From assembly GCA_028673005.1 (NCBI GenBank), contig CM054114.1, positions 16,245,516 through 16,309,515 of the forward strand: a DNA stretch of 64,000 nt, in the 5' to 3' direction. Positions within the stretch are counted from its first letter, which is position 1, and every line of letters starts with the position of its first letter. Positions 26,857-64,000 of this stretch are shown in pieces. Under the pieces are notes generated by a model, which was given only the letters and a program-made list of their open reading frames with translations, was not told the DNA's origin and did not search any database. The position numbers were made by a program, and so were the translations under genes. Source of the DNA: Tanypteryx hageni. Lineage: Eukaryota; Arthropoda; Insecta; Odonata; Petaluridae.

Positions 26857-27469
26857 CTGAATAAGAAAAGAACAAGAGAACTTAATATCAATATGTAGTC
26901 ATGAAATGAAGTTTTTCAAAAAAATTACAAAAGACAAAGCTGAAAACCTATGCCTAATCCCAGAAAAAAATATCTTAAGGTGCATAAAATATTTCTTTTG
27001 CACAAGTGCTGAGTCACATAATTTCTTAATATGTACTTTAATTAGTGCATGAGTTGTTGGTGCATTCTGCAAGTGCTTGATACACTATATACAGAGAGTC
27101 TCAGACCTACGTAAGGGTTCAGTTAATAATTTATTGTACTAGTTTTCGGTACTTTGTAAACCTTTTCCGGGCAAGGTGAGCATTCCAGGCTCACTATGTT
27201 AGTCTTTCTCTATTTTCTCCTCGAAATTAGGAAGTACATTTCTATAAAATTTAGACTTCTATTATTTTTTCATACTCAACTATGTGCGATATCGTATATG
27301 TTTTTTTAAATTCTGAATTCTAGAAAAAAATAATAAATCTATAAGTTACGCTAATGGGCAACGTGAGCCTTGGAGTCTCCATCCAATTTCGATCTCCTTC
27401 CCTCTTTCTCTACATTTTAATATAATATACATATATTTGTTTTCGTCTTATGTACTGGATGAGTATCAA

Positions 27470-27830
27470 AAGGACCTTCGACGCCTGACAAATATGGTAT
27501 GAAAATCTGGTGGCTTTGTGACTCCAAAATTTTTACTCCTTGTATGGAATACCGTATTTAGGCAAATGAGAAAATAGGGCATATAATTTAGGATCATTTG
27601 TTGTTTAGTCACTGACAGAAATTTTCAGTGGAACTAATAGCAATATCACCTGCGATAATTATTTCACAGATCTTGAATTTGCAAAAAAACTTCTTTCAAA
27701 TGTGCTAACATTGGTAGGAACTGTCAGTAAAAATAAGAAATTCATCCCTTCAAAATTTATTCCGAACAAAGCACTATAAGAGGGTTCTTCACTTTTCGGA
27801 TTTACTAAATTATTATGGGGTACTAATGCT
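27470..27830 (+). pseudogene. piggyBac transposase fragment (left arm)
   Basis: The plus frame (with stops) reads ITCDNYFTDLEFAKKLL, LTLVGTVSKNKKFIP and SKFIPNKAL, then GSSLFGFTKLLW. This matches the piggyBac block xxDNFFTSxxLxxxLL … LTxxGTxRxNKxxxP. Only this catalytic-core fragment survives. Confidence 0.7.
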
Positions 27831-27889
27831 AGAAGTTTTTGCCAAATTTTAAAGTTGTAGTACTTCTAGAAGTGAAAAAATATTTTTCC

Positions 27890-28345
27890 AATTGTTTAAA
27901 TTTTAAACATTTTTAACGGCCGCTGCAATATGTTTATGGAGAGATTCATATGTTTATTTGTGCAAATGCACTACTCTGTAAATAACTTGAAAATTTCAGC
28001 ATCCTAGCTCATCCCGTAGTACCTAAACTGTTATCTATTTGTATAAACTTTAAGAATATTTAACTGCCAAATTAATTAAAATATCAAAATTTGTATAATC
28101 TTTATTTCGTTTTTTTACGAATTTTACTTATAAAAAAACTTTAAATTCCGTAGCGCATGCGGAAATACACAAACCTTGAAAATTTGTTTAAACAATTGCA
28201 AATTTTTAGCGGCCGCATTACTGCACTTTTTCAAGATTTTCGTTTTTTCTAGTCGGTTTTGCACAAAATGCCACCTATGAAAAAAATTTCGAATCTCCAG
28301 CTCATCTGGAAGTGCCTAAACATTAGTATCCTCCTCCTCTGTAAG
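27890..28345. repeat. Two diverged units with GCGGCCGC-like motif (left arm)
   Basis: Segments near 27890-28060 and 28175-28345 share AACGGCCGC/AGCGGCCGC and AGCTCATC…GTxCCTAAAC in the same order. The function is unknown. The mirror copy occupies about 62924-63379. Confidence 0.4.
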
Positions 28346-28350
28346 AAACG

Positions 28351-28560
28351 TCTATATATAATGATAAGTATGCGTTTACGGCGCGGGTGGCGCGGAACGA
28401 CGATTGGAAGCGAAGTTTCTAGTCTTTCTACAGTCGAAAAGCCCGCGAACACCGCGATGCGTACACTAATATAATAACCTGCGCAGTTGTGGCAACAAGA
28501 CAAAGTTGATCGACTGCAAGACGAGGTGATAACGACGGTGAGCATTTCAATATTATTGTT
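28351..28560 (+). promoter_or_regulatory. Possible promoter and 5' exon of the adjacent hAT element
   Basis: CTATATATAATG (about 28350) is followed by an unusually GC-rich stretch and, at 28538, GACG|GTGAGC, a donor-like site, about 150 bp before the BED-finger frame. This could be a TATA promoter and leader exon of the hAT element. The mirror copy is at 62709-62918. Confidence 0.3.
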
Positions 28561-28689
28561 ACTTTGCCTGTAGTTCTGAGTTGTTCGATGTGTGTTAAAA
28601 TTGTCTGATTATAGAATTTTATTTTATTGTATAAACGGGTGCAAATGGCAAGGAAATAAAGTGTACTTTTAAAGAGGCTTTGTAAAAGG

Positions 28690-30240
28690 AATATCCTTTT
28701 TTAAGAAGCGTCACAATCCATACGTAACATTCTGCACCCAATGCAATATTGAGATAAACGTTGCTCATTGTGGGAAATCTGACATCAGACTACATATGCA
28801 ATCAAAGAAACATCAGTTAGCTGTCAGCTTTGTAGCTTCCATTGCTTCAATTAAGAAATTTCTTACAGAAGATTATTCTGTTATAATGGAGCTTGTGGCA
28901 AATGAAGCGGTATCACAACTAAAACAATAATTGTTTCAGATTTTTAGATTGCACCTCTAAGATAATTTCCACATTGTTTGTAGATAAATTTTCATCATCA
29001 CGAGCAAAAAGCGAAGCAATTGTGAAAAACGTTATTACTCCAGAAACTCAAAAGAGGTTGCAACAGGAATTGGGTGAAACTTCGTGTTTCACCATTATGA
29101 TAGATTCATCTAACCACATAAAATACTGGAGTCAATGTGAAAGTTCTTGAACTTGACGTCCTGCAAGGTAAGACAATTAACCAATTGAATGATTATATTT
29201 CTCTGTTCTAAGTCACAGCAGACTTGTTGATAAGATTGTTGGCATATCAGCTGATAATACCAATACTAGCTTTGAAGTTGCAAAACGTACAGGTTCTAAG
29301 AATCTTTTCCGAAATCATCGGACAACTGTAGTAGAACATTGGTGGAGATGACACACATTTGCATTAAAATGCGTCTGATGTTCTTCCAGTTGATGTGGAA
29401 GTTGTTATTGTAAAAATATTCAGATTTGTTCATATTTACACGATACGAGTGGAGGCACTGAAATTATTTTGTGATTTTATCGACAAATTTTGTCGTATTT
29501 GAACACAAGATTTCTGTGACTGATGCCTACTCTTGAAAGAATACTAATAATGCTTCAACCGCTACGAGTTTATTTATTATCAGTTAAAATGCACCCGTTA
29601 ATCTTAAGAAATTTTTCTAAGATCCCAAATCAGTACTTTGGTTCTGATTCTTACACAATGTTGCCAATATTTTCCATGATGCTATTTCCAAAATGGAGGG
29701 GAAGCCGCATGTGAATTGTTGCGCCTGTATAAGAATTTGGACGAGAGAAAAATATCTAAGTTATTGCCGCCCAAAGTAAAAGAATTGGAGAAGAAATGTG
29801 CTAACGATGGTATTCATTCCAGCAATTCATCAAAATTTTTTAATGAACTGTGTGTCCTGAATTCGTATCTTAATAAGGACTTGCTAGACGAATGGGACAA
29901 GGAGAAAATATCTATAGATCAGAGATGGTTAAATGTACATACTTATAGATTTTTGTCATAAAAACATTATTATTCCAAACACAGAATATGTGCGAATTCG
30001 TCGTCTCTCTTCCAAGTACTAACGCTTCGATAGAGAGGTAATTTTTGCTTATTAAGAACTTTTGAGGATCGATGTCTATTGAAACCATAAAATATCTCCT
30101 GACAATCCAAATGAATTACAGCGAGACTTGCTAAGATATGTTTTAAAAAAATTAAGAACATTAAACAATTATTGAGTAAGCTGAATTCTTTCAACAAATA
30201 CGAGTGGAACAATATGCGATCAACTTCAGCAGTAGATGAA
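28690..30240 (+). pseudogene. hAT transposase with BED finger, degenerate (left arm)
   Basis: In order: FFKKRHNPYVTFCTQCNIEI and SDIRLHMQSKKHQLAV (a C-x2-C…H-x-H-type BED finger, about 28698-28820), then RAKSEAIVKNVITPETQKRL and CFTIMIDSSNH (29000-29110). After that come IVGISADNTNTSFE, ACELLRLYKNLDERKISKLL…WDKEKISIDQRWLNVH (29708-29940), and EFVVSLPSTNASIER (about 29995-30040). The last is the hATC dimerisation signature (LPxTNASxER). At least four frame changes and several stops make it inactive. Confidence 0.7.
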
Positions 30241-30249
30241 TGACAAAAT

Positions 30250-31334
30250 TAAAAACAAATATTGTATTAACTGGTTATATATAAATATTTTTTGCTGAAT
30301 TTTGTATTTTTTCATTTTATTCTTTTTAATAAAGGCGATTCGTTATATGTGATTTAATTTTTATACTTTTGTAGAAATTTTCATAAAAATAAATTCACGA
30401 ATAAGAAAAAATTATTTGTTTACCATGTGTCCCGAATTTTGGTTTGGAAGATATAGTCACCGTAGCAATACGTGCACAACAAGTATAAGCATGCTGCAAA
30501 AACTATGTAGTAGTTAATGTAGAAATAATGTTTGCAACGAACGCAGCATTAAAAGAATTTTCTGCTTCAACTGTAAAAAAGCGATAAAATAATTTCCATA
30601 TTGTTCAAAAAACTTATATTTTTGTAATATATTTTGTAGCAAAATATTTTAATTGCCATTTTATGTCTTTGGTAAATAAATGAATTATATTTGCTGAAAG
30701 TATTACTGCTCTTCAATCCTTCCAATGCATTGTAATCAACTGTGAGTCTCAGAGTTGGTAAAATAGCTTGCCCAGATAAGAGTTAAGCTCCTTCTGGAAA
30801 CATACTTGTTCAACACTTCCCACCGTTTTTTAGACGCAGAGGAGAAATTATAAAGCTCTTTCACCGCAGTAAAGAAACCAATTCTTTTGAAGTATATTTT
30901 TTGCACCGTTGTTCACAATTTAAAGAACGAGCACTACAGGGAATCTTGATTTGTGCATCTACATGTTTGATCCATTACCGCACCCTTGACCTCTCATATA
31001 TTTGGCTGATAATTTTACCTTATACGGCTCCTTTAATGACGAATCTGTTAATTCTACTCAAGTTGTATCTTGAATTGGAAAAAAACTAAGGAGACTTTCA
31101 TGGAATATCATTTCACATTCTCATTTAGAAGAAATACTACATTTTATTGTGCAACTGGGTAAGAAAGAGGAGAACCACCACAATAGGTATAGCGATTTTA
31201 AAAACACCGATTTGTATTTGTATACAGTACAGCAGCATAGCTAGAACGGCAGGGGCCCTCGGTAAAAGTCGCCACTTATACAATGTATAACTTTCTCCAG
31301 GATAAAATGGGGAGACATCATTTCACTTACTTGT
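30250..31334. other. No gene seen (left arm)
   Basis: AT-rich DNA following the hAT remnant. TGTCCCGAATTTTGG at about 30427 may belong to its 3' end. The mirror is 59935-61019. Confidence 0.4.
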
Positions 31335-31563
31335 TAGTCCGTAAATAACTATTATTGACCGGGTGGGATAGAATTCTAGGGATTGGATATATTTAGAGAA
31401 TATTCCTTGCGGCTTAGGAGTATTCTCTTAATCCATATCTATTTCGCCGTAGTATACAATAACGAAATAGATTTTGATTGTGTTTATTGCCATATTATAA
31501 TAATCACCATAAATTCTGGTCAATTTGTTGTGATATTTACGCATAAATGGTGAATTGCGGCAA
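31335..31563. repeat. Interspersed repeat B, copy 1 (left arm)
   Basis: A 229-bp sequence (GTAAATAACTATTATTGACC … GGTGAATTGCGGCAA) that recurs, diverged by several percent, at 40190-40416. It has its own mirror at 59706-59934. No coding content. Confidence 0.7.
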
Positions 31564-32198
31564 GTTGCACACTTGGTATGGAATAAATAATAAATATCGT
31601 AATTGACTCTCTGAAATGGGAATTAGGATATATTAAACAACTCGTAGAAGGCTGAATCCGCAGATACTGAAGTTAGACATTCCTGCACACCCCTTCCTTT
31701 GGCCAATTATGGAAGTGCTTCAATATATAACTGCTTTCTGATTGTTCGCTTTGTCGTGTGTCAGCCATTCTAAGAATAACATCAGTACCGAAATGCTGAC
31801 CATTTCTCTCTTATTTCCTATTTGATTAAAGGGGTGACTGCCTTCATCTGTCCATTCTAGCAATGGGACTGACAATAACGGCTTACAACTCGAAGGACAT
31901 AGAGCCCATAGCATATTTTTAAAGCTAAGCTTGTGCATTAAACGTCTTTATATTCATCCTGGAAAATAGCTAATGGCAAAACACTACTAATTTTTTTATT
32001 CCAATTTCAAAAAAATTAAATTAAGACTAATGTGACAATTTCGTGATCAGGCTTGACTACTATCAACGTAGCAATATTTTTTAAAATTTCTTTCTCTCAA
32101 AATAAAAGATTTTCTTTTATGATTGCAACCATAAAATGCATTCAGGCATCAGAGTAAATGGAATGCAGAAAAATCAGAACATCATGAAAAACACTCAC

Positions 32199-32255
32199 AT
32201 GTTGCTGTTCCCGTTTATGATGCTTCAAAATTCCCTTTGGAGATTTATCTTCATT
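32199..32255 (-). CDS. 57-nt exon of the membrane-protein gene (left arm)
   Basis: The acceptor TCTTTATCAG and donor CAT|GTGAGTG bound 19 codons, phase 0-0, reading NEDKSPKGILKHHKREQQH, a basic, hydrophilic juxtamembrane-type segment. The preceding transmembrane exon ends in phase 0 (GACCCT), so direct joining keeps frame. Its flanking intron is homologous to that of the 26824-26856 micro-exon, showing an exon duplication. Confidence 0.62.
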
Positions 32256-32479
32256 CTGATAAAGAAAAGAACAAGATGAGTTAACGTAATTATGTAGTTA
32301 TGAACTGAATTTGATGAAGATTCTCAATAAATTGACAATTTAATGAAACAAAGACTAAGCTCCAAACTTATGCATAATCTCCGAAAAAATGTTATTTTAC
32401 AGTTTCATAAAATTCATTGGCGCAAGTTAAATAACACTTCATCGTCGGTGCATTCATAAAAACAGAAACACCATATACA

Positions 32480-33584
32480 GACAATCCCCGACTTACGTTA
32501 GGGTTCGGTCGCGTAAACCCGTTTACATAGTCAATACATATTATTTGAGTCAAGTGGAGTCCATATATATAAGATAATAAATTGCGAGAGTCCTCGCTGA
32601 ATGTTTATCATCTTCCGCGAAATTACCGTCATGACTGATTGACACGTACGCACGCACCGCGAATCATCAAAGACGCAAACGGCAGTTTTACTTGGCTGTA
32701 AATTTGGGATTACAAAAATATTATGTACCGATATATATCATGTATCGTAACCTTAATATCAATATCAACGATACACTTGTAGGAATATATTGACATATAA
32801 AAAGACTGATAAGTACATTAAAATGGTCCTTCTGTTATCAGAATATATTAAATTACGTGAAATACGGGGTTTGGTGTGGAATTTTATCATTGAACTCGCG
32901 CTGTGTACGGCTTGTTCCTACCAAAGTCTAACATTTGAAAAAACTCTCAACACACTTCCCAAAACCATGGAGTGGCAGTAGTAGTTTATTTATCAAATAC
33001 AGAAAATATAAATAAATAACTGACAATTTGGAATCCGACGGCTGATCAGAGCTAAACATTTGGTGTAGTATTTGCCTGTTAGTTTTAAATTCGTTTACGA
33101 AGGCAACTTAAGCTACCAAAACCACCCGGTAGTAGGCTATCTTTTAGATTAATTGAAATATTTTTCAAATTGTTTCACAGCAAATATATGTTGAAATATA
33201 TTTTTCAGAATTTTATTAACACATCACTATAGTAAAATACAAATAGCCGAAATAAATTAATATAGCGTAACATGTCATACTATTTGCAACAATTACAGTG
33301 TCATTAAAATGTCAATCAGTCACACCATCTCGTCACAATCTTAACAAAGACCCTAATCTGTTTATCATCGGCAAATATGACTTATCAATGTAACTTGGAG
33401 GTAATTTAAGAAATACATAATAAATATTATTATTATTTAAGATCGTTAAAAGCTAAGAATGATGTAAAGAAAAATGCTTTGTCAAATCTGGCACAGTCAG
33501 GAAAAAATAAATAGTGAAATCTTGCCCAAAATTTTGTAGCACTGGAGACTGAAAAATCCCACAGCTCCTCACGTTCCTCACTTA
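32480..33584. other. Intron-like DNA, no gene seen (left arm)
   Basis: This begins with a patch (AATCCCCGACTTACGTTAGGG) similar to one near 27100, as part of the exon-intron duplication. The rest is AT-rich without recognisable features. The mirror is 57685-58789. Confidence 0.45.
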
Positions 33585-34850
33585 TCTACATCTGCATGTT
33601 ACCCTGCAATTCACCATTCTGGTGGATGGCAGAGGGTGCACTGCACCGAGGCACACCTAACAGTTATTACTCGCAGATTTATCTTGCCAGTTATGGTCTC
33701 GTATTGTTCTCGGAAAGAAGGAGCCTCTATAACGTTCCGTCCTACAATGGATCTCACGTATCTTATCGCCATGATCGTTTCTACCTATGTACGTTGGAGC
33801 CTCATTTACTGCCACTACATCTTCTGCTAGACATTCTGATCTGTATTTATTTAGGAGCCTTAACCTTGAGCACATTCTACTGCCTTCCAGAGGTCTCCAT
33901 TTTAAATGCTTCAATAATGATGTGACGCTCTCCATATGTTCGTACTTTTGTTTAACGAACCTGCCTGCTCTCCGCTGTACCCATTCTAACTTCATTTTAT
34001 AGTCCTCCTCATACGGATCCCATATAATGGAGGCATATTTCACCTTCGTTCTAATTAGTGAAAAATAACACGCTACGCGGTCTTTCTCTGTACTATTCCG
34101 CACTATTCTGCCTATAAAGGAGTTTCCTGTTAGCTGCACCTATAACACGATGAATGTGCATTCTCAACGAATGGTCACGACAAATAGTAACTCCTAAATA
34201 TTTTATATGTTCAGCTGCTTGAATATTCCTTGTATCGATTTTGTACTCGAAACCTAATTCTCTATTCTTACTTCTCCACAACAGTACTACTGCACATTTA
34301 CTGTATTTCATTTCAATGCTCCATTCCTTACACCATGCGGAAATGGCTTTTAAATCTTCCTACAGCGACTGATTGCCATCTCGGTTGATTATCTCCTTAA
34401 ACATATATGGCGGTGTCATCTGAGAAGAGTCTGATTTTACTACTACCACCGAAAAAATACCATTTACATAAATTAGGAATAGTAGAGGGCCCAATAAACT
34501 TCTCTGAGGAACACGTGACCCGACTTGAAAGGGGGACAAGTACATTCCATTAATGACCACTATCTGTTCTCTCTTCCTGAGGAAATCTCTCACCCAATTC
34601 GCAATTTTCGGGTTGATACAGTATTTTACGTGCTTCGCTATCAAATTCCGATGTGGGACCTTATCAAACGCCTTCCTGAAGTCAATTAAAATAGAATCGC
34701 CCTGGATATTTTTTTCTCCGCATCGCAATAAATCATTCACGAAAAACCGAGTTGAGTTTCACATAATCTACCTTTCCGGAATCCGTGTTTGTATATTTTT
34801 GTCTGATCAACCTCTTCATTTATTATAGCCATAGCTCCTTCCACGCCGAT
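33585..34850 (-). pseudogene. 5'-truncated CR1-like non-LTR retrotransposon (left arm)
   Basis: Minus-strand RT frames read HGFRKGRLCETQL, FVNDLLRCGE-like, DSILIDFRKAFDKVPHRNL (motif A), VPQRSLLGPLLFLIY (motif B, with Arg for the usual Gly), YLGVTICRDHSLRMHIH, and then YASIIWDPYEEDYK, LEWVQRRAGRFV and SFFPRTI. This order is typical of CR1-like elements. The 3' end near 33585 runs into CAGATGTAGAT, similar to their terminal repeats. The endonuclease half is missing, and there are frameshifts at about 34370 and 34100-34140. Confidence 0.75.
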
Positions 34851-34859
34851 CACACAAGG

Positions 34860-35030
34860 GAGGAGGAAAACCCGGCGCTGGCATTCGGAATGGGACTGTT
34901 CGGTGCAACCGTTTCGGCGCGAGGATCTTTTGGCAGGGAAACCTTTCGGCGCAGGGATCATTTGGCTCAGGGATCTTTCGGCGCGGGGACCTTTCAGCGC
35001 AGGAACACATTTTTTCTCTTTCCCGGGGTA
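34860..35030. repeat. TTTCGGCGC-type short tandem repeats (left arm)
   Basis: About six ~18-22-bp units of the form GGCGC(A/G)GGGA(T/C)C(A/T)TTTC. The mirror is 56454-56624. Related units occur in inverted orientation at 42050-42140 and 52588-52678. Confidence 0.65.
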
Positions 35031-36531
35031 ATACTCGAGCAAAATAGCAGAAAATATTGCTACATACTATACCTAAACTTGGTAGAATTCGACGTTTATT
35101 TTTGTTTTCATCGACGATTTAAATCGACGTTTATTTTTCCTAGAAAATTTAGACTAATATTGACGCTTAAAATTACAACTACTATAGGGTTGGTAATATT
35201 CGACATTCATTTTTCTAAAATATCGGCGTTAACTTTTCGTAAAAATTAGCGACCAATATCGACATTTACTTTCATACATTTTACTAGGCTTGGTAGTTTT
35301 AGAAGTTAATATTTCTTAAAACGCGATAACTACCTTTATTTTTTATTCCTAAAAATCAACGACGTACATCAACGTTTATTATTATACATGTAATTGAACA
35401 ATTTAGTTTTAGACCTTTATATTTTGGCTATAATAATCCAAGAGGTTGATTAGCAAGAAATACTCACAAACACCGACGTTTATAAGGATGTATTTCTTAA
35501 AAAGCGATATCTAATATCGATGATTATTTCAATACATTTCATCAATTGTAACCTAGAAAAGTGTTATAAATTGAATTGCTTCTAATTATGTTTAACTAAA
35601 AGTGTGTAAATAAAAATAAGGCTTATTTTATGCTGCTTTATTTGTTGTTATCTATATTTTGGCGAATGTATTGTTATTGACTTCGGCCACCACCCTGGAA
35701 CAGTTAACTTTTTGCAATAAATTATTCACGAAATCAAGATCATTATCGAGAAATTAACGCCGCATGAGTATAACGCACAACCTAATGTATGAATGAATAT
35801 TTTGATGAAAAGTATATCATTTTGTTGAGTAATAAACAACTATGAATGCGGAAAAACTCCAGAGTGCGTATATGGAACGATGCGCCTTCGGCAGTAATGC
35901 AAAAGAAACTAAGCACGATGGACACTCTCAGAAAGATTATATACATTTTATGACAGGGTGCTTTTGGAAATGCCCTACGATACTCATTTTTCAGTTCGGG
36001 AAAACCTTTCATTTTGCCTGTTGGAGGAGGTCGGCAGATAATTTCGCGCCGAGGACGCAATAGACGTCCCCCGACTTTTCGGTATATGAAGTCTAAAGTG
36101 CGTATGGCATATCGGATCTGGCCGGGGGAAAGAAAGATAACAATTAACCGATCATAATATTTTGTCCTCTACCCTTGGATTCCACGGTTGCTGAGTAGGT
36201 GCCCTTAAGACAGCAGTGACATAAGTAAGCGAAATTAGAAAACAAATTCCGAATGTTGTTTGGCCGTGGGTATGAAAAGTACAGACTGTCTCTACGGTTT
36301 TGGTTGTTTGGTGGTAAAATATGTTAAGTTTTAGAGCGGATAACAAAGTTTTAAAATCATGACGCATAAATTTCCTGGAAAATGTATTGGTGAATTCTAC
36401 ACTTATCGAAGACAGTTCATTTTCGTCGATTTAAATTTAAAAAAAATTAGATTTTCATCGATTTAAATCGTATCCTACCAAGCCCAACTGTATATTGGCT
36501 TCCTGTAGGTTAAAATATTAACGGAATATTT
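35031..36531. other. AT-rich repeat-derived DNA, no gene seen (left arm)
   Basis: It contains recurring phrases such as GACGTTTATTTTT and GGCTTGGTAG, and a patch GGCTTCCTGTAGGTTAAAA that recurs at about 41960. These are parts of one diverged repeat family running from 34860 to about 40000, into which the RTE element inserted. The frame at 35842-36063 has no recognisable domain. The mirror is 54953-56453. Confidence 0.45.
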
Positions 36532-36543
36532 CGTAATACTGAT

Positions 36544-39500
36544 CATCATCATCATCATGAGGTGTTCTGCCTCTAGGCAGGTCCCTGGCACCAGCGTTGT
36601 CTCCACTCATTTCTGTTCCTTGCCATTTCTTTCATTTCCTGATACCCTCCCCTTTCTTTCAGATCGTCAAACATTTTTATTCTTCTACGTCCCCTTTTCC
36701 TTTCCCCTTCTACTGATCCTTCCAACACCATCAATAGTAAACCTTCTCCTCTCAAGATATGCCCTAACCAGTTACTTTTCCTCCTCTGAATTGTTTCAAG
36801 TAATCTTCTCTTCTCATTCACCCTTGTTAGTATTGCTTCATTCCTTATCCTATCCGTCCACTTAACCTTCTCCATCCGCCTCCACACCCACATTTCAAAT
36901 GCCTCTAGTCTTTCTTTCTCTCTTTTCTTTAGCGTCCATGTTTCACACCCATAAAGCAATACACTCCAAACATAGCACTTCACAAGACGTTTCTTCAGAT
37001 TTAAATCCATTTTACCACATAGTACCCGTTTTTTCTTATTAAATGTTTCTTTTGCCATTGCTATTCTTGTTCTTATTTCTTTTTCACTTCTCCAGTCTTC
37101 ATTTAGCATGCTTCCCAAATATCTATACTGTTTTACTTGCTCTACTCTTCCATCCTTTATTGACACATTCATAATCTCTCTATCCCCTATTCTCATCACC
37201 TTTGTTTTCTTTATGTTCATTTTCATTCCATATTCCATCATCCTGTCTTCTAGCTTTGTAACCATTTCCTGAATATGCCTCGTTTCATCTGCCAAAATTA
37301 CCATGTCATCAGCAAACCTTATACAATTTATTATTCTACCCCCAATACTAATTCCTTTATCATTCCCTATTCCATTGTCAATCATTTCTTCAGCATATAT
37401 ATTGAACAGGGTTGGCGATAAGCAGCAACCTTGCCTTACTCCTCTTCCTAAATCATACCATTCGGTCTGTGCATCTTTTATCCTCATAGCTGCTTTCTGT
37501 TTCATATACAGCTCTTTAATTAACCTTCTATCTTTCCAGTCTACTTTTTTTGCTTTTAGTATTTCCATCAGTTTTTCCCAGTTCACTCGGTCGAATGCCT
37601 TCTCCATATCTATGAAGCACAGACTAATTCCTTTACCCCTTTCTATATATCTCTCTTCACTCATTCTTATCAATCCTATTGCATCTCTTGTACCTCTACT
37701 CTTTCTAAATCCAAACTGTTCCTCTGCAACATTTTCTTCCATTTTGCTAATTAGTCTCCTGTTCATAACCCTAAGTAGAACCTTTGCTGCATGTGTAATT
37801 AAACTGATTGTTCTGTGTTCACTGCATTTTCTTGTTCCTTGCTTTTTCGGAATTGGAATCATAATTGTTTTGACGAAATCCTCTGGCCACATCCCCTTGT
37901 CATAGATTGCATTACACAACTTCACTATTTCTTCCAGTCCTTCCTCATTAAGACACTTAAATAATTCTATCGGTATCTCATCTACCCCCATTGCCTTCCC
38001 ATTCTTCATATCCTTTATTGCTTGTAGCACCTCTATTTTCAATATCGAAACCCCTGTTTCGTCATTATTTATTTCATCCTGCTCTTCAATACGGAGATCC
38101 TTTGGTTTTTCATTTGATTTGTACAACTCCTCCATGTATTCTCTCCATCTATTAAGGACCTCCTCTTCCTTATATAGAACTTTATCTTCTTTACTTGCAA
38201 TCTCTTTCACACATGCACTTGTTCTCCGTCTATCCCACGTTACATTTTTTACTTTCTTATACATCAAGTCATACATTCCTTTTCTCTCTAGATCTTCTAT
38301 ATCTGAGCATTCCTCCTCTAGCCATTTCTCCCTTGCTTTTTGGGTTTCTCTTCTTAGTTCATTATTCAGTTTCCTGTATTTCCTTTTTCCATCTTCATCA
38401 GTCCTGCTTTTGTATTGCCTTCTTTCTTCCATCTTTTCTATCATTTCCTTTGTCACCCATGGCTTTTTTATTCTTTTTCCTTTGAAAAACCCAATAGCCT
38501 GTTCTGCTGTTTTCCTTATAGCCTTCTTTATCCTATTCCATGCTTCATCCACATTTTCCTCCGACACGTTTTCTCTTTTGATTGCCTGAGCTAATTTTTC
38601 TCCTATTCTTTCTTTTCCTACTGTGGCTATATTCTCTAAATCCCATTTCCTAACTATCTTAGCCTTCTTAACCTTCTTCAAGGCTAGTTTTATTTCGGCC
38701 ATGAGGAGCACATGATCACTGTCAATGTCTGCTCCTGGAAGTCCATATGCCTTTTTTACTCCATTTCTATATCTTTCTTCCACTAGAATATAATCTATTT
38801 GATATCTGGCTCCATCTCCTGGTGATTTCCACGTGTATAGCCTTCTCTTATGATTTTCAAACCAAGTATTTGATATAAACATCCTCTTCTCTTTACAGAA
38901 CTCAACAAGTCTTTCACCTCTTTCATTTCTTTTCCCTAGTCCAAATTTCCCTACTACTTGGTCTTCTCTTCCCTCTCCTACCACAGCGTTCCAATCGCCC
39001 ATCACTATCTTGAAACAGTTTTTACCTTCCTCCTCCATAATATTTTCTATCTTCTCGTATATTTCTTCAACAGCCTCATCTTCATGTTGGCTGGTCGGCA
39101 TATAAACTTGTATCAACAGTAGATCTTTCGGGTGCATTCCTATTCTAAGACCAATTGCTCTATCATTTACAAATACCACCCTCTGTACACAATTTGCTAT
39201 TTCCTTATTCAAAATTACCCCTACTCCATTCGTTCATCTAGTACCTCCTGAATAGTACACTGTGATGTCATCACTTTTTATTTCCCCTCTTCCTTCCCAT
39301 CTCATTTCACTTAAGCCAATCATATCCATTCTATTTATTTTCATCTCTTTCTTTAAATTTTCCAACTTCCCTGCTCGTAGGAGTGTTCTAACATTCCACG
39401 TGCCAATTCTCAACTTCTTTCCAGCATCCTTCCTTCCTTGTGTTAAACGGAACCTCTCGTGTTGTCCCCCCCGGAGATCCGAGCGGGGGACCATTTTGCC

Positions 39501-47727: not shown

Positions 47728-47730
47728 AAT

Positions 47731-52050: not shown

Positions 52051-52287
52051 GTAAGTATAATACGCCTAAACTGGCAATTACATACTTCTCTTATCTTACA
52101 AACCCTTCTAAGAGGTTATTTTATGCAGTTGATAACAAAAATGTCCAATCGTCTCTAGTGAATATGAAATGCTCGTTTTTAAGAAAATAACCTTTTTTGT
52201 TCAAATAACTATTCATTTATTAAGAGCAAATGTCCCTTACTGCTACAAAATTTTACTTTACATTCATATCATAACGGATACAAGCAC

Positions 52288-52490: not shown

Positions 52491-55400
52491 ATTTGTTTGG
52501 TAAATAGTTTTACCACCAATATAGGCCGTGCTTCGTGGTAACACCCAAGTTCCCAGCCTTGGTGCTTTTCATTAAGAGTAGGCTAATGCCGGCGGGTTTA
52601 GAAAAGTTCGACGTAATCGTTTCGTCTCGGAGATCTTTCGGCGGAGAGACATTTCGGCGCGGGACTTTTTGGCGAAGGAACACAATTTTTCTGTGTTTTC
52701 CTGGGTAAAACTAGAGCAAAGTTACTACATATTATGTCTTGGCTTCCTGTTGGTAAAAATCTTAAATTAATGGAATATTTCTTAATACTGATATTGGAAA
52801 TTCATGTACGTACACAACAATGTCTTATGAAAATAATAAAGTTAGGAGGGGGGAGTGCGGTAAAAATTGTTAACACATATAGGCGATATGGCTGTCTGTC
52901 GTAATCGTCGACAAATGTCGAATTTTAAATTGGAATTCTACGAAGATAAATAATCATCGGTAACTGTCGATTAGGAATAAAAATATTAATCCTGATTAAT
53001 AAATTATGATTTCTCTTAGTTTATCACATTGAAACTAATATTATTATTCTCAAACATCGTTAGCTGTTAATTCAAAAACCAGACCGAAAACACTTGACGT
53101 TTACAACGTCTGCATTTTGTTTTAAGGTCACTGGTGCATAAGGAGTTGTTGAATTCGCTCTAAGAAAAATCATCGTTAAACGAAACGTCTTTGCATGAAT
53201 GCTCATATACCAAAATAACAATACTTACGATTAAGGGTAGATTATTTCTCTGTGCTTATGATATTTTTAATAAAAATACATTAATCTTCAGATCTTATAA
53301 AGCTATCTGCATGATTTCTGATCATTTTCATTAAGACTGGTTTGCCATACCACCTCATGCCGTCCCATCTTAAGCACTACTTAAATAAATTCGATTGTAC
53401 GCTTAACATACAATGTATAGAAAAACCGTAGATAAGATTTAAATTCCCTTACGCTCAGTTCTTACACTCTCAGCTTCAACTCAATGGAGATTGTTATGAT
53501 TAACCTTTACGCTAATACTATATAGTCTGTTGACATATTTGGCGAATATCTCAGGATCTTTGCAAGATAACTGGAATGCCTTGTTTTAATATTTTTATTT
53601 TATATGAAAGGAAGAGAATCAAATAAAAAACCAACTAAACATATTTGAAGGAAAATAGCAATTCCAAAGTGACGACAAAACCTAAAAATGCTATACTTCT
53701 TCAATATAACGTAGTTTCTTATGATTACGGTGACATCTCTGAACGAATGATAAACCATTCGTAAAAGAAAAGAATTTAATTTTTCTAACAAACCAAGTTC
53801 GAATCCGTGCTGAGGTAGCGTAAAAATAGGTTTATAAATGCGAATAAGCTTATTTTTCCAAGGATCAACTATGGATAATTTTAATTACGCTAGGAAAAAA
53901 CTCAGCACTTTTAAAAGGAAATTAAAAATTGAATTGGCTTTACGCATTGAATTATAAGTAAGGACCTCATAAACAGATATTTACTTTGATGTAATCGAGA
54001 TGCAAACCATAACACTAAGCTTTCTCCTTGCGATATGATCTGTTTTTCTCGATGCTCCTGTTACTCACATAGTCTACTTTTGGCTCTTCCTTTCCGTTCG
54101 TTCTTCGTTTGTATTTTTTTTGTTTTTGTGATTCATTCTTTGTCCTCACTTTTATTAACACCAGTATAGCATACCACATCCAACTTTGCAACCTCATGCA
54201 ATGCTTATTTAATATTAATTAATAATGTTATTAATAATTTCGACCATCTTCCCCATAACCTTCCCACCGCTAATCCTTACTAATTTCCGTAGTGTAGTTA
54301 AATATTGCTCATTGCCGCAATTTACCATTTATGCGTATTTTCACAACAAATTTACCAGAGTTTAGGGTGATTATTAAACATGGCAATAAACCCAATCATA
54401 ATCTATTTGGTTATTGTATACTACGGCAAAATAGATATGGATTAAGAGAATACTCCTAAGCCGCAAGGAATATTCTCTAAATTTATCCAACCCCTAGAAT
54501 TCTATCCCACCCGGTCAATAATAGTTATTTACGTACTAAAAAGTGCTCCTGTTATTCACATACTGTACTTGTGGCTCTTCCTTTCCGTTTGTTCTTCGTC
54601 TGTATTTTTTGTTTTAGTGGTTCATTCTTTGTTCTTACTTTTATTAACACCAGTATAACATACCAAATCCTACTTTTCAACCTCATGCAATGCTTATTTA
54701 ATATTAATTAATAATATTATTAATAATTTCGACCATCTTCCCCATAACCTTCCCACCGCTAATCCTTACTAATTTCCGTAGTGTAGTTAAATATTGCTCA
54801 TTTACTATGAAATTTCCATTCGATAGACATTCATCTCCCCTATAAATGTTAGTTATTTCGATCTCTCCCTCCCTCCCCCCGCCAACAGTTATTATTCTCA
54901 TAAGATGATGTTGTGTACCTACAAGCAATTTTCAGTAGGTATCAGTATTACGAAATATTCCGTTAATATTTTAACCTACAGGAAGCCAAGATATAGTTGG
55001 GCTTGGTAGGATACGATTTAAATCGATGAAAATCTAATTTTTTTTTAATTTAAATCGACGAAAATGAACTGTCTTCGATAAGTGTAGAATTCACCAATAC
55101 ATTTTCCAGGAAATTTATGCGTCATGATTTTAAAACTTTGTTATCCGCTCTAAAACTTAACATATTTTACCACCAAACAACCAAAACCGTAGAGACAGTC
55201 TGTACTTTTCATACCCACGGCCAAACAACATTCGGAATTTGTTTTCTAATTTCGCTTACTTATGTCACTGCTGTCTTAAGGGCACCTACTCAGCAACCGT
55301 GGAATCCAAGGGTAGAGGACAAAATATTATGATCGGTTAATTGTGATCTTTCTTTCCCCCGGCCAGATCCGATATGCCATACGCACTTTAGACTTCATTT

Positions 55401-56633
55401 ACCGAAAAGTCGGGGGACGTCTATTGCGTCCTCTGCGCGAAATTATCTGCCGACCTCCTCCAACAGGCAAAATGAAAGGTTTTCCCGAACTGAAAAATGA
55501 GTATCGTAGGGCATTTCCAAAAGCACCCTGTCATAAAATGTATATAATCTTTCTGAGAGTGTCCATCGTGCTTAGTTTCTTTTGCATTACTGCCGAAGGC
55601 GCATCGTTCCATATACGCACTCTGGAGTTTTTCCGCATTCATAGTTGTTTATTACTCAACAAAATGATATACTTTTCATCAAAATATTCATTCATACATT
55701 AGGTTGTGCGTTATACTCATGCGGCGTTAATTTCTCGATAATGATCTTGATTTCGTGAATAATTTATTGCAAAAAGTTAACTGTTCCAGGGTGGTGGCCG
55801 AAGTCAATAACAATACATTCGCCAAAATATAGATAACAACAAATAAAGCAGCATAAAATAAGCCTTATTTTTATTTACACACTTTTAGTTAAACATAATT
55901 AGAAGCAATTCAATTTATAACACTTTTCTAGGTTACAATTGATGAAATGTATTGAAATAATCATCGATATTAGATATCGCTTTTTAAGAAATACATCCTT
56001 ATAAACGTCGGTGTATGTGAGTATTTCTTGCTAATCAACCTCTTGGATTATTATAGCCAAAATATAAAGGTCTAAAACTAAAATGTTCAATTACATGTAT
56101 AATAATAAACGTTGATGTACGTCGTTGATTTTTAGGAATAAAAAATAATGGTAGTTATCGCGTTTTAAGAAATATTAACTTCTAAAACTACCAAGCCTAG
56201 TAAAATGTATGAAAGTAAATGTCGATATTGGTCGCTAATTTTTACGAAAAGTTAACGCCGATATTTTAGAAAAATAAATGTCGAATATTACCAACCCTAT
56301 AGTAGTTGTAATTTTAAGCGTCAATATTAGTCTAAATTTTCTAGGAAAAATAAACTTCGATTTAAATCGTCGATGAAAACAAAAATAAACGTCGAATTCT
56401 ACCAAGTTTAGGTATAGTATGTAGCAATATTTTCTGCTATTTTGCTCGAGTATTACCCCGGGAAAGAGAAAAAATGTGTTCCTGCGCTGAAAGGTCCCCG
56501 CGCGGAAAGATCCCTGAGCCAAATGATCCCTGCGCCGAAAGGTTTCCCTGCCAAAAGATCCTCGCGCCGAAACGGTTGCACCGAACAGTCCCATTCCGAA
56601 TGCCAGCGCCGGGTTTTCCTCCTCCCTTGTGTG

Positions 56634-57684
56634 ATCGGCGTGGAAGGAGCTATGGCTATAATAAATGAAGAGGTTGATCAGACAAAAATATACAAACACG
56701 GATTCCGGAAAGGTAGATTATGTGAAACTCAACTCGGTTTTTCGTGAATGATTTATTGCGATGCGGAGAAAAAAATATCCAGGGCGATTCTATTTTAATT
56801 GACTTCAGGAAGGCGTTTGATAAGGTCCCACATCGGAATTTGATAGCGAAGCACGTAAAATACTGTATCAACCCGAAAATTGCGAATTGGGTGAGAGATT
56901 TCCTCAGGAAGAGAGAACAGATAGTGGTCATTAATGGAATGTACTTGTCCCCCTTTCAAGTCGGGTCACGTGTTCCTCAGAGAAGTTTATTGGGCCCTCT
57001 ACTATTCCTAATTTATGTAAATGGTATTTTTTCGGTGGTAGTAGTAAAATCAGACTCTTCTCAGATGACACCGCCATATATGTTTAAGGAGATAATCAAC
57101 CGAGATGGCAATCAGTCGCTGTAGGAAGATTTAAAAGCCATTTCCGCATGGTGTAAGGAATGGAGCATTGAAATGAAATACAGTAAATGTGCAGTAGTAC
57201 TGTTGTGGAGAAGTAAGAATAGAGAATTAGGTTTCGAGTACAAAATCGATACAAGGAATATTCAAGCAGCTGAACATATAAAATATTTAGGAGTTACTAT
57301 TTGTCGTGACCATTCGTTGAGAATGCACATTCATCGTGTTATAGGTGCAGCTAACAGGAAACTCCTTTATAGGCAGAATAGTGCGGAATAGTACAGAGAA
57401 AGACCGCGTAGCTCCTAAATAAATACAGATCAGAATGTCTAGCAGAAGATGTAGTGGCAGTAATTGAGGCTCCAACGTACATAGGTAGAAACGATCATGG
57501 CGATAAGATACGTGAGATCCATTGTAGGACGGAACGTTATAGAGGCTCCTTCTTTCCGAGAACAATACGAGACCATAACTGGCAAGATAAATCTGCGAGT
57601 AATAACTGTTAGGTGTGCCTCGGTGCAGTGCACCCTCTGCCATCCACCAGAATGGTGAATTGCAGGGTAACATGCAGATGTAGA
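56634..57684 (+). pseudogene. 5'-truncated CR1-like retrotransposon (right arm, 215 bp shorter)
   Basis: Mirror copy of 33585-34850. It has lost 215 bp between 57411 and 57412 (left-arm 33858-34072), removing the WDPYEEDYK … WRPLE portion. A 2-bp microhomology (GC) at the junction fits end-joining repair. Confidence 0.75.
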
Positions 57685-59013
57685 TAAGTGAGGAACGTGA
57701 GGAGCTGTGGGATTTTTCAGTCTCCAGTGCTACAAAATTTTGGGCAAGATTTCACTATTTATTTTTTCCTGACTGTGCCAGATTTGACAAAGCATTTTTC
57801 TTTACATCATTCTTAGCTTTTAACGATCTTAAATAATAATAATATTTATTATGTATTTCTTAAATTACCTCCAAGTTACATTGATAAGTCATATTTGCCG
57901 ATGATAAACAGATTAGGGTCTTTGTTAAGATTGTGACGAGATGGTGTGACTGATTGACATTTTAATGACACTGTAATTGTTGCAAATAGTATGACATGTT
58001 ACGCTATATTAATTTATTTCGGCTATTTGTATTTTACTATAGTGATGTGTTAATAAAATTCTGAAAAATATATTTCAACATATATTTGCTGTGAAACAAT
58101 TTGAAAAATATTTCAATTAATCTAAAAGATAGCCTACTACCGGGTGGTTTTGGTAGCTTAAGTTGCCTTCGTAAACGAATTTAAAACTAACAGGCAAATA
58201 CTACACCAAATGTTTAGCTCTGATCAGCCGTCGGATTCCAAATTGTCAGTTATTTATTTATATTTTCTGTATTTGATAAATAAACTACTACTGCCACTCC
58301 ATGGTTTTGGGAAGTGTGTTGAGAGTTTTTTCAAATGTTAGACTTTGGTAGGAACAAGCCGTACACAGCGCGAGTTCAATGATAAAATTCCACACCAAAC
58401 CCCGTATTTCACGTAATTTAATATATTCTGATAACAGAAGGACCATTTTAATGTACTTATCAGTCTTTTTATATGTCAATATATTCCTACAAGTGTATCG
58501 TTGATATTGATATTAAGGTTACGATACATGATATATATCGGTACATAATATTTTTGTAATCCCAAATTTACAGCCAAGTAAAACTGCCGTTTGCGTCTTT
58601 GATGATTCGCGGTGCGTGCGTACGTGTCAATCAGTCATGACGGTAATTTCGCGGAAGATGATAAACATTCAGCGAGGACTCTCGCAATTTATTATCTTAT
58701 ATATATGGACTCCACTTGACTCAAATAATATGTATTGACTATGTAAACGGGTTTACGCGACCGAACCCTAACGTAAGTCGGGGATTGTCTGTATATGGTG
58801 TTTCTGTTTTTATGAATGCACCGACGATGAAGTGTTATTTAACTTGCGCCAATGAATTTTATGAAACTGTAAAATAACATTTTTTCGGAGATTATGCATA
58901 AGTTTGGAGCTTAGTCTTTGTTTCATTAAATTGTCAATTTATTGAGAATCTTCATCAAATTCAGTTCATAACTACATAATTACGTTAACTCATCTTGTTC
59001 TTTTCTTTATCAG

Positions 59014-59070
59014 AATGAAGATAAATCTCCAAAGGGAATTTTGAAGCATCATAAACGGGAACAGCAACAT
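59014..59070 (+). CDS. 57-nt exon, second copy (right arm)
   Basis: Mirror copy of 32199-32255 with identical splice sites and identical coding sequence. It follows the right-arm transmembrane exon by 7 kb in the same orientation, so the right arm keeps the gene order intact. Confidence 0.62.
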
Positions 59071-61028
59071 GTGAGTGTTTTTCATGATGTTCTGATTTTT
59101 CTGCATTCCATTTACTCGGATGCCTGAATGCATTTTATGGTTGCAATCATAAAAGAAAATCTTTTATTTTGAGAGAAAGAAATTTTAAAAAATATTGCTA
59201 CGTTGATAGTAGTCAAGCCTGATCACGAAATTGTCACATTAGTCTTAATTTAATTTTTTTGAAATTGGAATAAAAAAATTAGTAGTGTTTTGCCATTAGC
59301 TATTTTCCAGGATGAATATAAAGACGTTTAATGCACAAGCTTAGCTTTAAAAATATGCTATGGGCTCTATGTCCTTCGAGTTGTAAGCCGTTATTGTCAG
59401 TCCCATTGCTAGAATGGACAGATGAAGGCAGTCACCCCTTTAATCAAATAGGAAATAAGAGAGAAATGGTCAGCATTTCGGTACTGATGTTATTCTTAGA
59501 ATGGCTGACACACGACAAAGCGAACAATCAGAAAGCAGTTATATATTGAAGCACTTCCATAATTGGCCAAAGGAAGGGGTGTGCAGGAATGTCTAACTTC
59601 AGTATCTGCGGATTCAGCCTTCTACGAGTTGTTTAATATATCCTAATTCCCATTTCAGAGAGTCAATTACGATATTTATTATTTATTCCATACCAAGTGT
59701 GCAACTTGCCGCAATTCACCATTTATGCGTAAATATCACAACAAATTGACCAGAATTTATGGTGATTATTATAATATGGCAATAAACACAATCAAAATCT
59801 ATTTCGTTATTGTATACTACGGCGAAATAGATATGGATTAAGAGAATACTCCTAAGCCGCAAGGAATATTCTCTAAATATATCCAATCCCTAGAATTCTA
59901 TCCCACCCGGTCAATAATAGTTATTTACGGACTAACAAGTAAGTGAAATGATGTCTCCCCATTTTATCCTGGAGAAAGTTATACATTGTATAAGTGGCGA
60001 CTTTTACCGAGGGCCCCTGCCGTTCTAGCTATGCTGCTGTACTGTATACAAATACAAATCGGTGTTTTTAAAATCGCTATACCTATTGTGGTGGTTCTCC
60101 TCTTTCTTACCCAGTTGCACAATAAAATGTAGTATTTCTTCTAAATGAGAATGTGAAATGATATTCCATGAAAGTCTCCTTAGTTTTTTTCCAATTCAAG
60201 ATACAACTTGAGTAGAATTAACAGATTCGTCATTAAAGGAGCCGTATAAGGTAAAATTATCAGCCAAATATATGAGAGGTCAAGGGTGCGGTAATGGATC
60301 AAACATGTAGATGCACAAATCAAGATTCCCTGTAGTGCTCGTTCTTTAAATTGTGAACAACGGTGCAAAAAATATACTTCAAAAGAATTGGTTTCTTTAC
60401 TGCGGTGAAAGAGCTTTATAATTTCTCCTCTGCGTCTAAAAAACGGTGGGAAGTGTTGAACAAGTATGTTTCCAGAAGGAGCTTAACTCTTATCTGGGCA
60501 AGCTATTTTACCAACTCTGAGACTCACAGTTGATTACAATGCATTGGAAGGATTGAAGAGCAGTAATACTTTCAGCAAATATAATTCATTTATTTACCAA
60601 AGACATAAAATGGCAATTAAAATATTTTGCTACAAAATATATTACAAAAATATAAGTTTTTTGAACAATATGGAAATTATTTTATCGCTTTTTTACAGTT
60701 GAAGCAGAAAATTCTTTTAATGCTGCGTTCGTTGCAAACATTATTTCTACATTAACTACTACATAGTTTTTGCAGCATGCTTATACTTGTTGTGCACGTA
60801 TTGCTACGGTGACTATATCTTCCAAACCAAAATTCGGGACACATGGTAAACAAATAATTTTTTCTTATTCGTGAATTTATTTTTATGAAAATTTCTACAA
60901 AAGTATAAAAATTAAATCACATATAACGAATCGCCTTTATTAAAAAGAATAAAATGAAAAAATACAAAATTCAGCAAAAAATATTTATATATAACCAGTT
61001 AATACAATATTTGTTTTTAATTTTGTCA

Positions 61029-62579
61029 TTCATCTACTGCTGAAGTTGATCGCATATTGTTCCACTCGTATTTGTTGAAAGAATTCAGCTTACTCAATAA
61101 TTGTTTAATGTTCTTAATTTTTTTAAAACATATCTTAGCAAGTCTCGCTGTAATTCATTTGGATTGTCAGGAGATATTTTATGGTTTCAATAGACATCGA
61201 TCCTCAAAAGTTCTTAATAAGCAAAAATTACCTCTCTATCGAAGCGTTAGTACTTGGAAGAGAGACGACGAATTCGCACATATTCTGTGTTTGGAATAAT
61301 AATGTTTTTATGACAAAAATCTATAAGTATGTACATTTAACCATCTCTGATCTATAGATATTTTCTCCTTGTCCCATTCGTCTAGCAAGTCCTTATTAAG
61401 ATACGAATTAAGGACACACAGTTCATTAAAAAATTTTGATGAATTGCTGGAATGAATACCATCGTTAGCACATTTCTTCTCCAATTCTTTTACTTTGGGC
61501 GGCAATAACTTAGATATTTTTCTCTCGTCCAAATTCTTATACAGGCGCAACAATTCACATGCGGCTTCCCCTCCATTTTGGAAATAGCATCATGGAAAAT
61601 ATTGGCAACATTGTGTAAGAATCAGAACCAAAGTACTGATTTGGGATCTTAGAAAAATTTCTTAAGATTAACGGGTGCATTTTAACTGATAATAAATAAA
61701 CTCGTAGCGGTTGAAGCATTATTAGTATTCTTTCAAGAGTAGGCATCAGTCACAGAAATCTTGTGTTCAAATACGACAAAATTTGTCGATAAAATCACAA
61801 AATAATTTCAGTGCCTCCACTCGTATCGTGTAAATATGAACAAATCTGAATATTTTTACAATAACAACTTCCACATCAACTGGAAGAACATCAGACGCAT
61901 TTTAATGCAAATGTGTGTCATCTCCACCAATGTTCTACTACAGTTGTCCGATGATTTCGGAAAAGATTCTTAGAACCTGTACGTTTTGCAACTTCAAAGC
62001 TAGTATTGGTATTATCAGCTGATATGCCAACAATCTTATCAACAAGTCTGCTGTGACTTAGAACAGAGAAATATAATCATTCAATTGGTTAATTGTCTTA
62101 CCTTGCAGGACGTCAAGTTCAAGAACTTTCACATTGACTCCAGTATTTTATGTGGTTAGATGAATCTATCATAATGGTGAAACACGAAGTTTCACCCAAT
62201 TCCTGTTGCAACCTCTTTTGAGTTTCTGGAGTAATAACGTTTTTCACAATTGCTTCGCTTTTTGCTCGTGATGATGAAAATTTATCTACAAACAATGTGG
62301 AAATTATCTTAGAGGTGCAATCTAAAAATCTGAAACAATTATTGTTTTAGTTGTGATACCGCTTCATTTGCCACAAGCTCCATTATAACAGAATAATCTT
62401 CTGTAAGAAATTTCTTAATTGAAGCAATGGAAGCTACAAAGCTGACAGCTAACTGATGTTTCTTTGATTGCATATGTAGTCTGATGTCAGATTTCCCACA
62501 ATGAGCAACGTTTATCTCAATATTGCATTGGGTGCAGAATGTTACGTATGGATTGTGACGCTTCTTAAAAAAGGATATT
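61029..62579 (-). pseudogene. hAT transposase with BED finger, degenerate (right arm)
   Basis: Mirror copy of 28690-30240 with the same disabling breaks, so the decay predates the split of the two arms. Confidence 0.7.
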
Positions 62580-63438
62580 CCTTTTACAAAGCCTCTTTAA
62601 AAGTACACTTTATTTCCTTGCCATTTGCACCCGTTTATACAATAAAATAAAATTCTATAATCAGACAATTTTAACACACATCGAACAACTCAGAACTACA
62701 GGCAAAGTAACAATAATATTGAAATGCTCACCGTCGTTATCACCTCGTCTTGCAGTCGATCAACTTTGTCTTGTTGCCACAACTGCGCAGGTTATTATAT
62801 TAGTGTACGCATCGCGGTGTTCACGGGCTTTTCGACTGTAGAAAGACTAGAAACTTCGCTTCCAATCGTCGTTCCGCGCCACCCGCGCCGTAAACGCATA
62901 CTTATCATTATATATAGACGTTTCTTACAGAGGAGGAGGATACTAATGTTTAGGCACTTCCAGATGAGCTGGAGATTCGAAATTTTTTTCATAGGTGGCA
63001 TTTTGTGCAAAACCGACTAGAAAAAACGAAAATCTTGAAAAAGTGCAGTAATGCGGCCGCTAAAAATTTGCAATTGTTTAAACAAATTTTCAAGGTTTGT
63101 GTATTTCCGCATGCGCTACGGAATTTAAAGTTTTTTTATAAGTAAAATTCGTAAAAAAACGAAATAAAGATTATACAAATTTTGATATTTTAATTAGTTT
63201 GGCAGTTAAATATTCTTAAAGTTTATACAAATAGATAACAGTTTAGGTACTACGGGATGAGCTAGGATGCTGAAATTTTCAAGTTATTTACAGAGTAGTG
63301 CATTTGCACAAATAAACATATGAATCTCTCCATAAACATATTGCAGCGGCCGTTAAAAATGTTTAAAATTTAAACAATTGGAAAAATATTTTTTCACTTC
63401 TAGAAGTACTACAACTTTAAAATTTGGCAAAAACTTCT

Positions 63439-63799
63439 AGCATTAGTACCCCATAATAATTTAGTAAATCCGAAAAGTGAAGAACCCTCTTATAGTGCTT
63501 TGTTCGGAATAAATTTTGAAGGGATGAATTTCTTATTTTTACTGACAGTTCCTACCAATGTTAGCACATTTGAAAGAAGTTTTTTTGCAAATTCAAGATC
63601 TGTGAAATAATTATCGCAGGTGATATTGCTATTAGTTCCACTGAAAATTTCTGTCAGTGACTAAACAACAAATGATCCTAAATTATATTCCCTATTTTCT
63701 CATTTGCCTAAATACGGTATTCCATACAAGGAATATAAATTTTGGAGTCACAAAGCCACCAGATTTTCATACCATATTTGTCAGGCTTCGAAGGTTCTT
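63439..63799 (-). pseudogene. piggyBac transposase fragment (right arm)
   Basis: Mirror copy of 27470-27830, with the same reading and the same breaks. Confidence 0.7.
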
Positions 63800-64000
63800 T
63801 TGATACTCATCCAGTACATAAGATGAAAACAAATATATGTATATTATATTAAAATGTAGAGAAAGAGGGAAGGAGATCGAAATTGGATGGAGACTCCAAG
63901 GCTCACGTTGCCCATTAGCGTAACTTATAGATTTATTATTTTTTCTAGAATTCAGAATTTAAAAAAACATATACGATATCGCACATAGTTGAGTATGAAA

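Follow-up and report, generated by a model that had tools for sequence, protein, structure and literature searches.

Human fold-back inverted duplications, as described by Hermetz et al. 2014 (PMC3907307), carry spacers of 766-70,466 bp, and inverted microhomology of 2-8 bp was found at 13 of the 21 junctions sequenced in that report. In the model of inverted amplification set out in PMC10766186, sequenced junctions are considered to reflect later rearrangement and may miss the first event. We analyzed a stretch of DNA of 64,000 nucleotides (contig C3:16245516-16309515), the whole of which is referred to as the window, and searched the 1.678-Gb genome of 1022 contigs to which it belongs. The window lies in a genuine large amplified palindrome array, which was formed by known kinds of process.

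The palindrome in the window and its array

A self-comparison confirmed the preliminary description of the window as a giant palindrome, and the three mirror sums given there (94728, 91484, and 91269) all held. The sum of 94728 applied to 39776-47003 with 21 mismatches in 7,228, that of 91484 to 34072-36543 with 12 mismatches in 2,472, and that of 91269 to about 27330-33858, where a 1-bp indel changes the sum to 91268 for 27268-27329; the 6,591-column block having the sums 91269 and 91268 contained 11 mismatches in addition to this indel. The left inner arm (27172-47003, plus strand) and the right inner arm (47725-64000, minus strand, running on to the window-equivalent 64096, C3 16309611, 96 bp beyond the window) differed by substitutions at 45 of 16,387 sites in the three blocks (0.27% over 16.4 kb), being more than 99% identical around an unduplicated spacer. 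Chance is ruled out as the source of 16 kb of inverted near-identity. The spacer between the arms was confirmed, but its length was 721 bp (47004-47724, no strand assigned) rather than the 727 bp described, because position 47001 is a mismatch within the arm. It represents a centre of the type designated A and is probably the remnant of a fold-back loop. Position 27269, described as the start of the palindrome, merely mirrors the last base of the window, and the inner arm ends at 27172, the edge of the low-divergence block.

The 215 bp at 33859-34073 (plus strand), associated with a 2-bp GC microhomology, have no counterpart in the right arm and are retained in another copy of the arm (L005), indicating a deletion in this right arm. 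The left arm alone contains an insert of 3.2 kb, located as previously proposed at a retrotransposon target site. This non-LTR retrotransposon (36544-39775, minus strand), which we take to belong to the RTE clade, has an 886-aa open frame with a reverse transcriptase match and a weak endonuclease match, and is bounded by a perfect 12-bp target-site duplication (CGTAATACTGAT; 36532-36543 and 39776-39787), the site being empty in the right arm. Its protein has at least 120 relatives, 44-62% identical, all with a reverse transcriptase domain and most with an endonuclease domain among the matches listed. The length from the spacer to the probe at 29.8 kb was 16.7 kb in the left arm of the window versus 4.6-13.5 kb in 16 other arms, and the insert therefore looks private to the window's left arm, barring a masking deletion, and also looks young. 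As for other coding content, a 166-aa frame (10672-11169) matches a hypothetical protein of Ladona fulva (74% over 93 aa), which as a single match suggests an odonate host, and a search for protein relatives of the arm frame at 45920-46378 found none. Pfam analysis of 18 entries, which represent part of all frames and include two frames twice and four from contig C6, gave transposon domains as the clear matches, and nothing was found by an Rfam scan at gathering scores or by a tRNA scan.

An amplified locus had been suggested as a possible setting for such a palindrome, and the window palindrome is, judging from probe searches of the assembly, one of about 14 in an array at 15.66-17.85 Mb of contig C3. 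The spacer is present there as nine near-identical full copies and one partial copy (15.94-17.85 Mb). Each probe search scored the best 40 candidates, and the counts for the arm probes are lower bounds. At 15.66-17.85 Mb, the probe from 29.8-30.8 kb gave at least 24 full and at least 3 partial copies, and that from 24-25 kb at least 26 places, five of which are split or shortened matches, with weaker matches elsewhere on contig C3 excluded from the count. The probe from 10.5-11.5 kb, which covers the 166-aa frame, gave at least 32 full copies (16 per strand, one just 96% identical) and one partial copy, the full copies on contig C3 being all within 15.66-17.82 Mb. When the three arm probes and the spacer were laid out, the map + + + spacer - - - recurred. 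Probes were found at both sides of the centre in 13 palindromes, the palindrome at 17.85 Mb had a right arm detected near the centre only, and a lone arm was present near 15.78 Mb. The 24-kb probe was absent from the right arms of the window and of the palindrome at 15.69 Mb, the latter having a partial spacer match, and the left arm at 16.01 Mb lacked the 29.8-kb probe. No spacer match was found in four palindromes (16.01, 16.86, 17.16, and 17.59 Mb), and five further copies of the 10.5-kb probe could be assigned to no palindrome (near 16.04, 16.35, 16.54, and 17.35 Mb, and one of two near 17.12 Mb).

Unfolded relatives and probable remodelling of the centre

Contig C6 contains a segment that is 96-99% alike and collinear over ~42 kb, with the segment P, which corresponds to the spacer, at 27.103 Mb and the arm probes at 27.125, 27.131, and 27.145 Mb. 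Other pieces of P on this contig are found at three near places (91-94%) and dispersed ones (83-85%). The contig also has further pieces of the 24-kb probe, at 75-95%, and two half copies of the 10.5-kb probe, one at 91% and the other, located 25 kb off in the opposite orientation, at 94%. Two of the four near places with P, at 27.10 and 24.81 Mb, were read over 6 kb. The two (L029 and L030) are at a distance of about 1.5% and 6.5%, respectively, from the contig C3 arms and share the order U - P - 16 bp - reverse arm; no palindrome is present in the 6 kb read at either. Dispersed copies of P (82-87%) are, moreover, found on many contigs. A mobile element as the origin of the centre was considered and not established, the frames of the C6 copy giving a weak DUF4371 match alone (E 0.055).

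The founder junction, at which the arm runs into P (46930-46932, plus strand), is present, with up to 2 mismatches, in all nine spacer-bearing centres of contig C3 and absent from both C6 loci read. Compared with the C6 order, the single-copy spacer is edged by a 2-bp inverted microhomology (GT, 46930-46931), and the loop is about 750 bp. An inverted duplication, one of the origins raised in the preliminary description, gains support here, as the centre junction represents a fold-back duplication relative to the two non-palindromic relatives. A single fold-back at the U/P boundary would explain the arm-into-P junction in one step.

The nine centres fall into type A (one), type B (two), type C (five), and type C with a large left-arm deletion (one). 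Common to all nine, again with up to 2 mismatches at the junction, is a deletion of ~480 bp after P with CA microhomology, whose residue is a 57-bp reverse-complemented piece of the arm (46466-46410) at the spacer end (47665-47721, minus strand); in the four near C6 relatives, the 57-bp piece is located ~470-480 bp past P, the spacing expected without the deletion. In type C (L004, L006-L008, and L047), the right arm starts with the arm copy of this inverted match (46410-46466, plus strand), and L005 is type C additionally without about 34466-46556 of the left arm. Both type B centres, at C3 15.94 and 16.10 Mb, contain CAAAGATTTGGACATTATTAGGTTT, which reproduces 25 bp of the spacer (47391-47415, minus strand as source) exactly in reverse, with 3-bp microhomology on each side (CAA and TTT at the switch points), and then re-enter the arm at 46140. 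This backward copy is a template-switch signature. Type A, found in the window, re-enters the arm at 47003, preceded by a few filler bases. The spacers of A and the two type B centres (B1 and B2) showed no differences in 662-663 sites, and the C-type spacers differed from them by 3-6, consistent with C preceding A and B. The order of B before A is weak because the two types have in common only CCAAAGA and the identical spacers; on the whole, we infer that the centres changed from C to B and then to A.

The explanation we consider probable is that a break and fold-back generated a palindrome, which was then amplified to about 14 copies and modified by centre remodelling and gene conversion. A segment with the order now found on contig C6 would have broken at U/P on contig C3. 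After folding back by ~750 bp, the broken end would have annealed to the arm via the 2 bp (GT), so that outward copying would have produced a palindrome with the loop P as its spacer. Multiplication of this palindrome would have given the head-to-head array, in which the centre would have stayed prone to rearrangement: the deletion of about 480 bp would have led to type C, a double template switch copying 25 bp backwards from the spacer to type B, and renewed extension of the right arm, as far as 47003, to type A. The spacer was probably lost in the four copies having no match to it, and patchy arm-to-arm gene conversion would keep the arms alike. The break followed by fold-back is the physical route that we infer, and there are points on the other side. 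Microhomologies of 2-3 bp can be chance, the loop of ~750 bp is slightly below the published fold-back spacer range (766-70,466 bp), and the C6 copy could be rearranged instead of ancestral and is not strictly single-copy. Among the centres examined, there was no founder centre predating the ~480-bp deletion, and a path of two steps, in which P was first inverted and a fold-back came second, is therefore an alternative.

It is also possible, if rather doubtful, that the palindrome centre acts as a self-renewing break site, at which repeated fold-back and template switching within one stretch of a few hundred bases would both remodel the centre and feed array growth, on chromosomes that are holocentric, if odonate, and on which inverted dimers may be better tolerated than on monocentric chromosomes. 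Odonate chromosomes are described as having no typical centromere (PMC9784284).

In another route, ODIRA, a strand switch at a replication fork, not a broken end, would have made the first inverted copies, and the present spacers would all be secondary. According to PMC10766186, unstable palindromic junctions later gain larger spacers via end joining, BIR/MMBIR, or recombination, and the series of centres on contig C3 resembles such secondary change. However, the first loop proposed here, of ~750 bp, is far above the 40-80 bp of the yeast loops, though enlargement after rearrangement is expected by the authors of that report, and we regard ODIRA as unlikely to have founded the array.

Outer arms and patchy divergence

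We examined the window together with 200 kb of flanking DNA (264 kb). The low-divergence inner block ends at C3 16272687/16309611, which correspond to 27172 in the window and to the mirror of this position, 64096, and the outer arms reach C3 16202596/16374504 as the outermost mirror match of at least 800 bp. The left arm thus extends to ~90 kb and the right arm to ~81 kb, with gaps and for the most part at ~1.1% divergence; the earlier estimate of at least ~20 kb per arm holds as a minimum but underestimates the whole palindrome. Outside 27172/64096, the right arm mirrors window 823-16019 and, past a gap, C3 16202596-16220355. The left outer arm in the window (823-16019, plus strand; mirror at C3 16309607-16324678, outside the window) showed a substitution divergence of 1.11% (167/15,050). 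The overall outer divergence was 354/32,924 (1.08%), with each of five blocks at 1.00-1.15%, where mirror matches below 800 bp and those in the internally duplicated C3 16220-16245 kb, including a 7.7-kb match of 94.7% identity, were left out of the count.

Between the inner and outer left arms lies a stretch of 11.15 kb (16020-27171, plus strand) that has no right-arm counterpart in this palindrome, the right arm linking the mirrors of 27172 and 16019 via a 5-bp microhomology, CCTTG. A transposon insertion was considered for this stretch, which is flanked by 5-bp direct copies, yet was set aside on its ends and its distribution among arms: inspection of the ends by eye found no TG...CA and no matching terminal repeats, and a probe inside the stretch matches both arms in 11 palindromes.

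A single young re-fold, in which fresh copying of the left arm generated the entire inner right arm (47725-64096) and CCTTG then connected it to the old arm, would account for the divergence of 0.27% and the loss of 11 kb together. In its favor, divergence steps from 0.27% to about 1.1% at this junction (45/16,387 versus 354/32,924, p 2.8e-24), the CCTTG junction occurs only once in the genome in a search allowing up to 2 mismatches, and in palindromes B1 and B2, the sequence fetched at 27172 runs on unbroken in all four arms. However, 8 of the 45 inner differences were located in the 409 bp beside the 11-kb heterology (2.0%, CI 0.8-3.8%) versus 37/15,978 elsewhere (p 1.3e-5, with the 409-bp cut set after the sites were seen). 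The piece at the junction may thus be as old as the outer arm, and the low-divergence tract begins inside it. The remaining inner block is also uneven (9/1,071 at 45070-46140). Because the 409 bp are as diverged as the outer arm, this re-fold, formerly our working model, was demoted to a rival, and we now find it quite improbable. The CCTTG junction itself looks old, and homogenization seems to have halted near the 11-kb heterology.

Patchy gene conversion between arms, as included in the break and fold-back explanation, is consistent with the distribution of the differences. Those in the inner block of the window palindrome were clumped (dispersion 2.4, p 0.0016), and those in the 15-kb outer block were even (dispersion 1.14, p 0.25). 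Within B1, the left and right arms differed at 2 of 3,206 sites near the centre, 24 of 2,058 sites at 27.2-29.2 kb, and 3 of 2,322 sites at 24.9-27.2 kb, ranging from 0.06% to 1.2% in one palindrome (Fisher p 1.9e-8 and 7e-6). Furthermore, we constructed a tree of the 14 arms of 7 of the about 14 palindromes and two C6 rows, the left arm of palindrome C1 being without part of the aligned stretch. Both arms of the same palindrome paired in six of the seven palindromes (support: B1, 94; B2, 100; C1, 95; C2, 62; palindrome C3, 98; A, 93), the exception being palindrome C5, and the backbone support was low. The arms paired within palindromes although the centre junctions show common descent. Taken together, the patchy identity and the pairing suggest that the arms have been homogenized by patchy arm-to-arm gene conversion, which had been proposed as a means of keeping them alike.

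An assembly artefact, namely the head-to-head joining of two haplotypes or of a chimeric fold-back read, could be suspected from the divergence of 0.27% with one insertion and one deletion, as expected of two haplotypes, but is most improbable, as the derived junctions are shared by nine centres whose spacers and arms differ, the outer arms are ~1.1% different, and the B1 and B2 arm pieces at model-computed places matched in 4 of 4 cases.

Comparison with known systems

This locus extends large multi-copy palindromes to a probable odonate; our literature search found no such palindromes reported for dragonflies or damselflies among the matches listed, which is not proof of absence. Within one genome, the founder junction is accompanied by three states of the centre, by apparent losses of the spacer, and by relatives that are not palindromic, and the sequence of events and the rate of centre remodelling relative to gene conversion are therefore directly measurable.

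Like the human fold-back inverted duplications described in PMC3907307, the palindromes have an unduplicated spacer between inverted copies and a 2-bp inverted microhomology at the junction, and template insertions during synthesis are proposed in that report for complex junctions. Unlike the human cases described there, those on contig C3 are interstitial in a chromosome-size contig and amplified about 14-fold, and no adjoining terminal deletion was seen. They also differ from mammalian sex-chromosome palindromes, as presented by Jackson et al. 2021 (PMC8981503), in that no host gene was recognized in the few frames scanned here, the outer arms are only about 98.9% alike by substitutions, and the host is likely an insect. 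The palindromes of the willow W chromosome, according to PMC7023750, are likewise consecutive, with ~20-kb stretches conserved among arms and evidence for gene conversion; two palindromes with sex-region genes are described there, in contrast to about 14 with no gene recognized in the frames scanned here. Yeast ODIRA, as outlined in PMC10766186, involves loops of 40-80 bp and yields a triplication, against ~750 bp for the proposed first loop on contig C3, and yeast and human ODIRA are similar to the present array in that palindromic junctions are remodelled later by end joining or template switching. Each process is thus known elsewhere, and the unusual part of this locus is its legible series of centre states.

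Coding frames and repeats of the arms

A 166-aa frame with a Met start lies on the minus strand at window 10672-11169 and matches a hypothetical protein of Ladona fulva, and its probe detected at least 32 full copies within the array of about 14 large palindromes (C3 15.66-17.85 Mb, on the contig of the window). DDE transposase pieces, which we take to be Harbinger-like, were found at window 8288-8952 (DDE_Tnp_4, E 6.9e-17; HTH_Tnp_4, E 6e-4, under its own cut-off), and a strand-skewed 9-bp minisatellite, CCTCCACAC, occupies window 12996-13353 with about 40 units, and several of its frames are open. Frames matching those of the transposase pieces, and others matching those of the minisatellite, were also present in the right outer arm, which lies beyond the window. 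Nearer the centre, a 106-bp tandem repeat occurs at window 44749-45062 and 49666-49979, and its unit count appears to differ between the arms of the array.

Palindrome centres and retrotransposon copies

At the C3 palindromes near 16.01, 16.86, 17.16, and 17.59 Mb, the arm probes flank the centre on both sides and no spacer match was found among the matches listed, as if the four centres had been lost by deletion. A second copy of the left-arm non-LTR retrotransposon (window 36544-39775, minus strand), located about 100 kb off at C3:16178782-16182011, was 98.85% like it, suggesting that the family is recently active.

Related loci on other contigs

On contig C6 (27.145-27.171 Mb), the collinear relative of the array matches the 10.5-kb arm probe, and half of that probe recurs at 94% in the opposite orientation at a distance of 25 kb; C6 itself may thus contain a small inverted duplication. 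On contig C4 (28.48-30.01 Mb), the matches listed for window 29812-30462 include at least nine places with a similarity of about 79%, every one of them on the plus strand, and these are perhaps another array, of the direct-repeat type.
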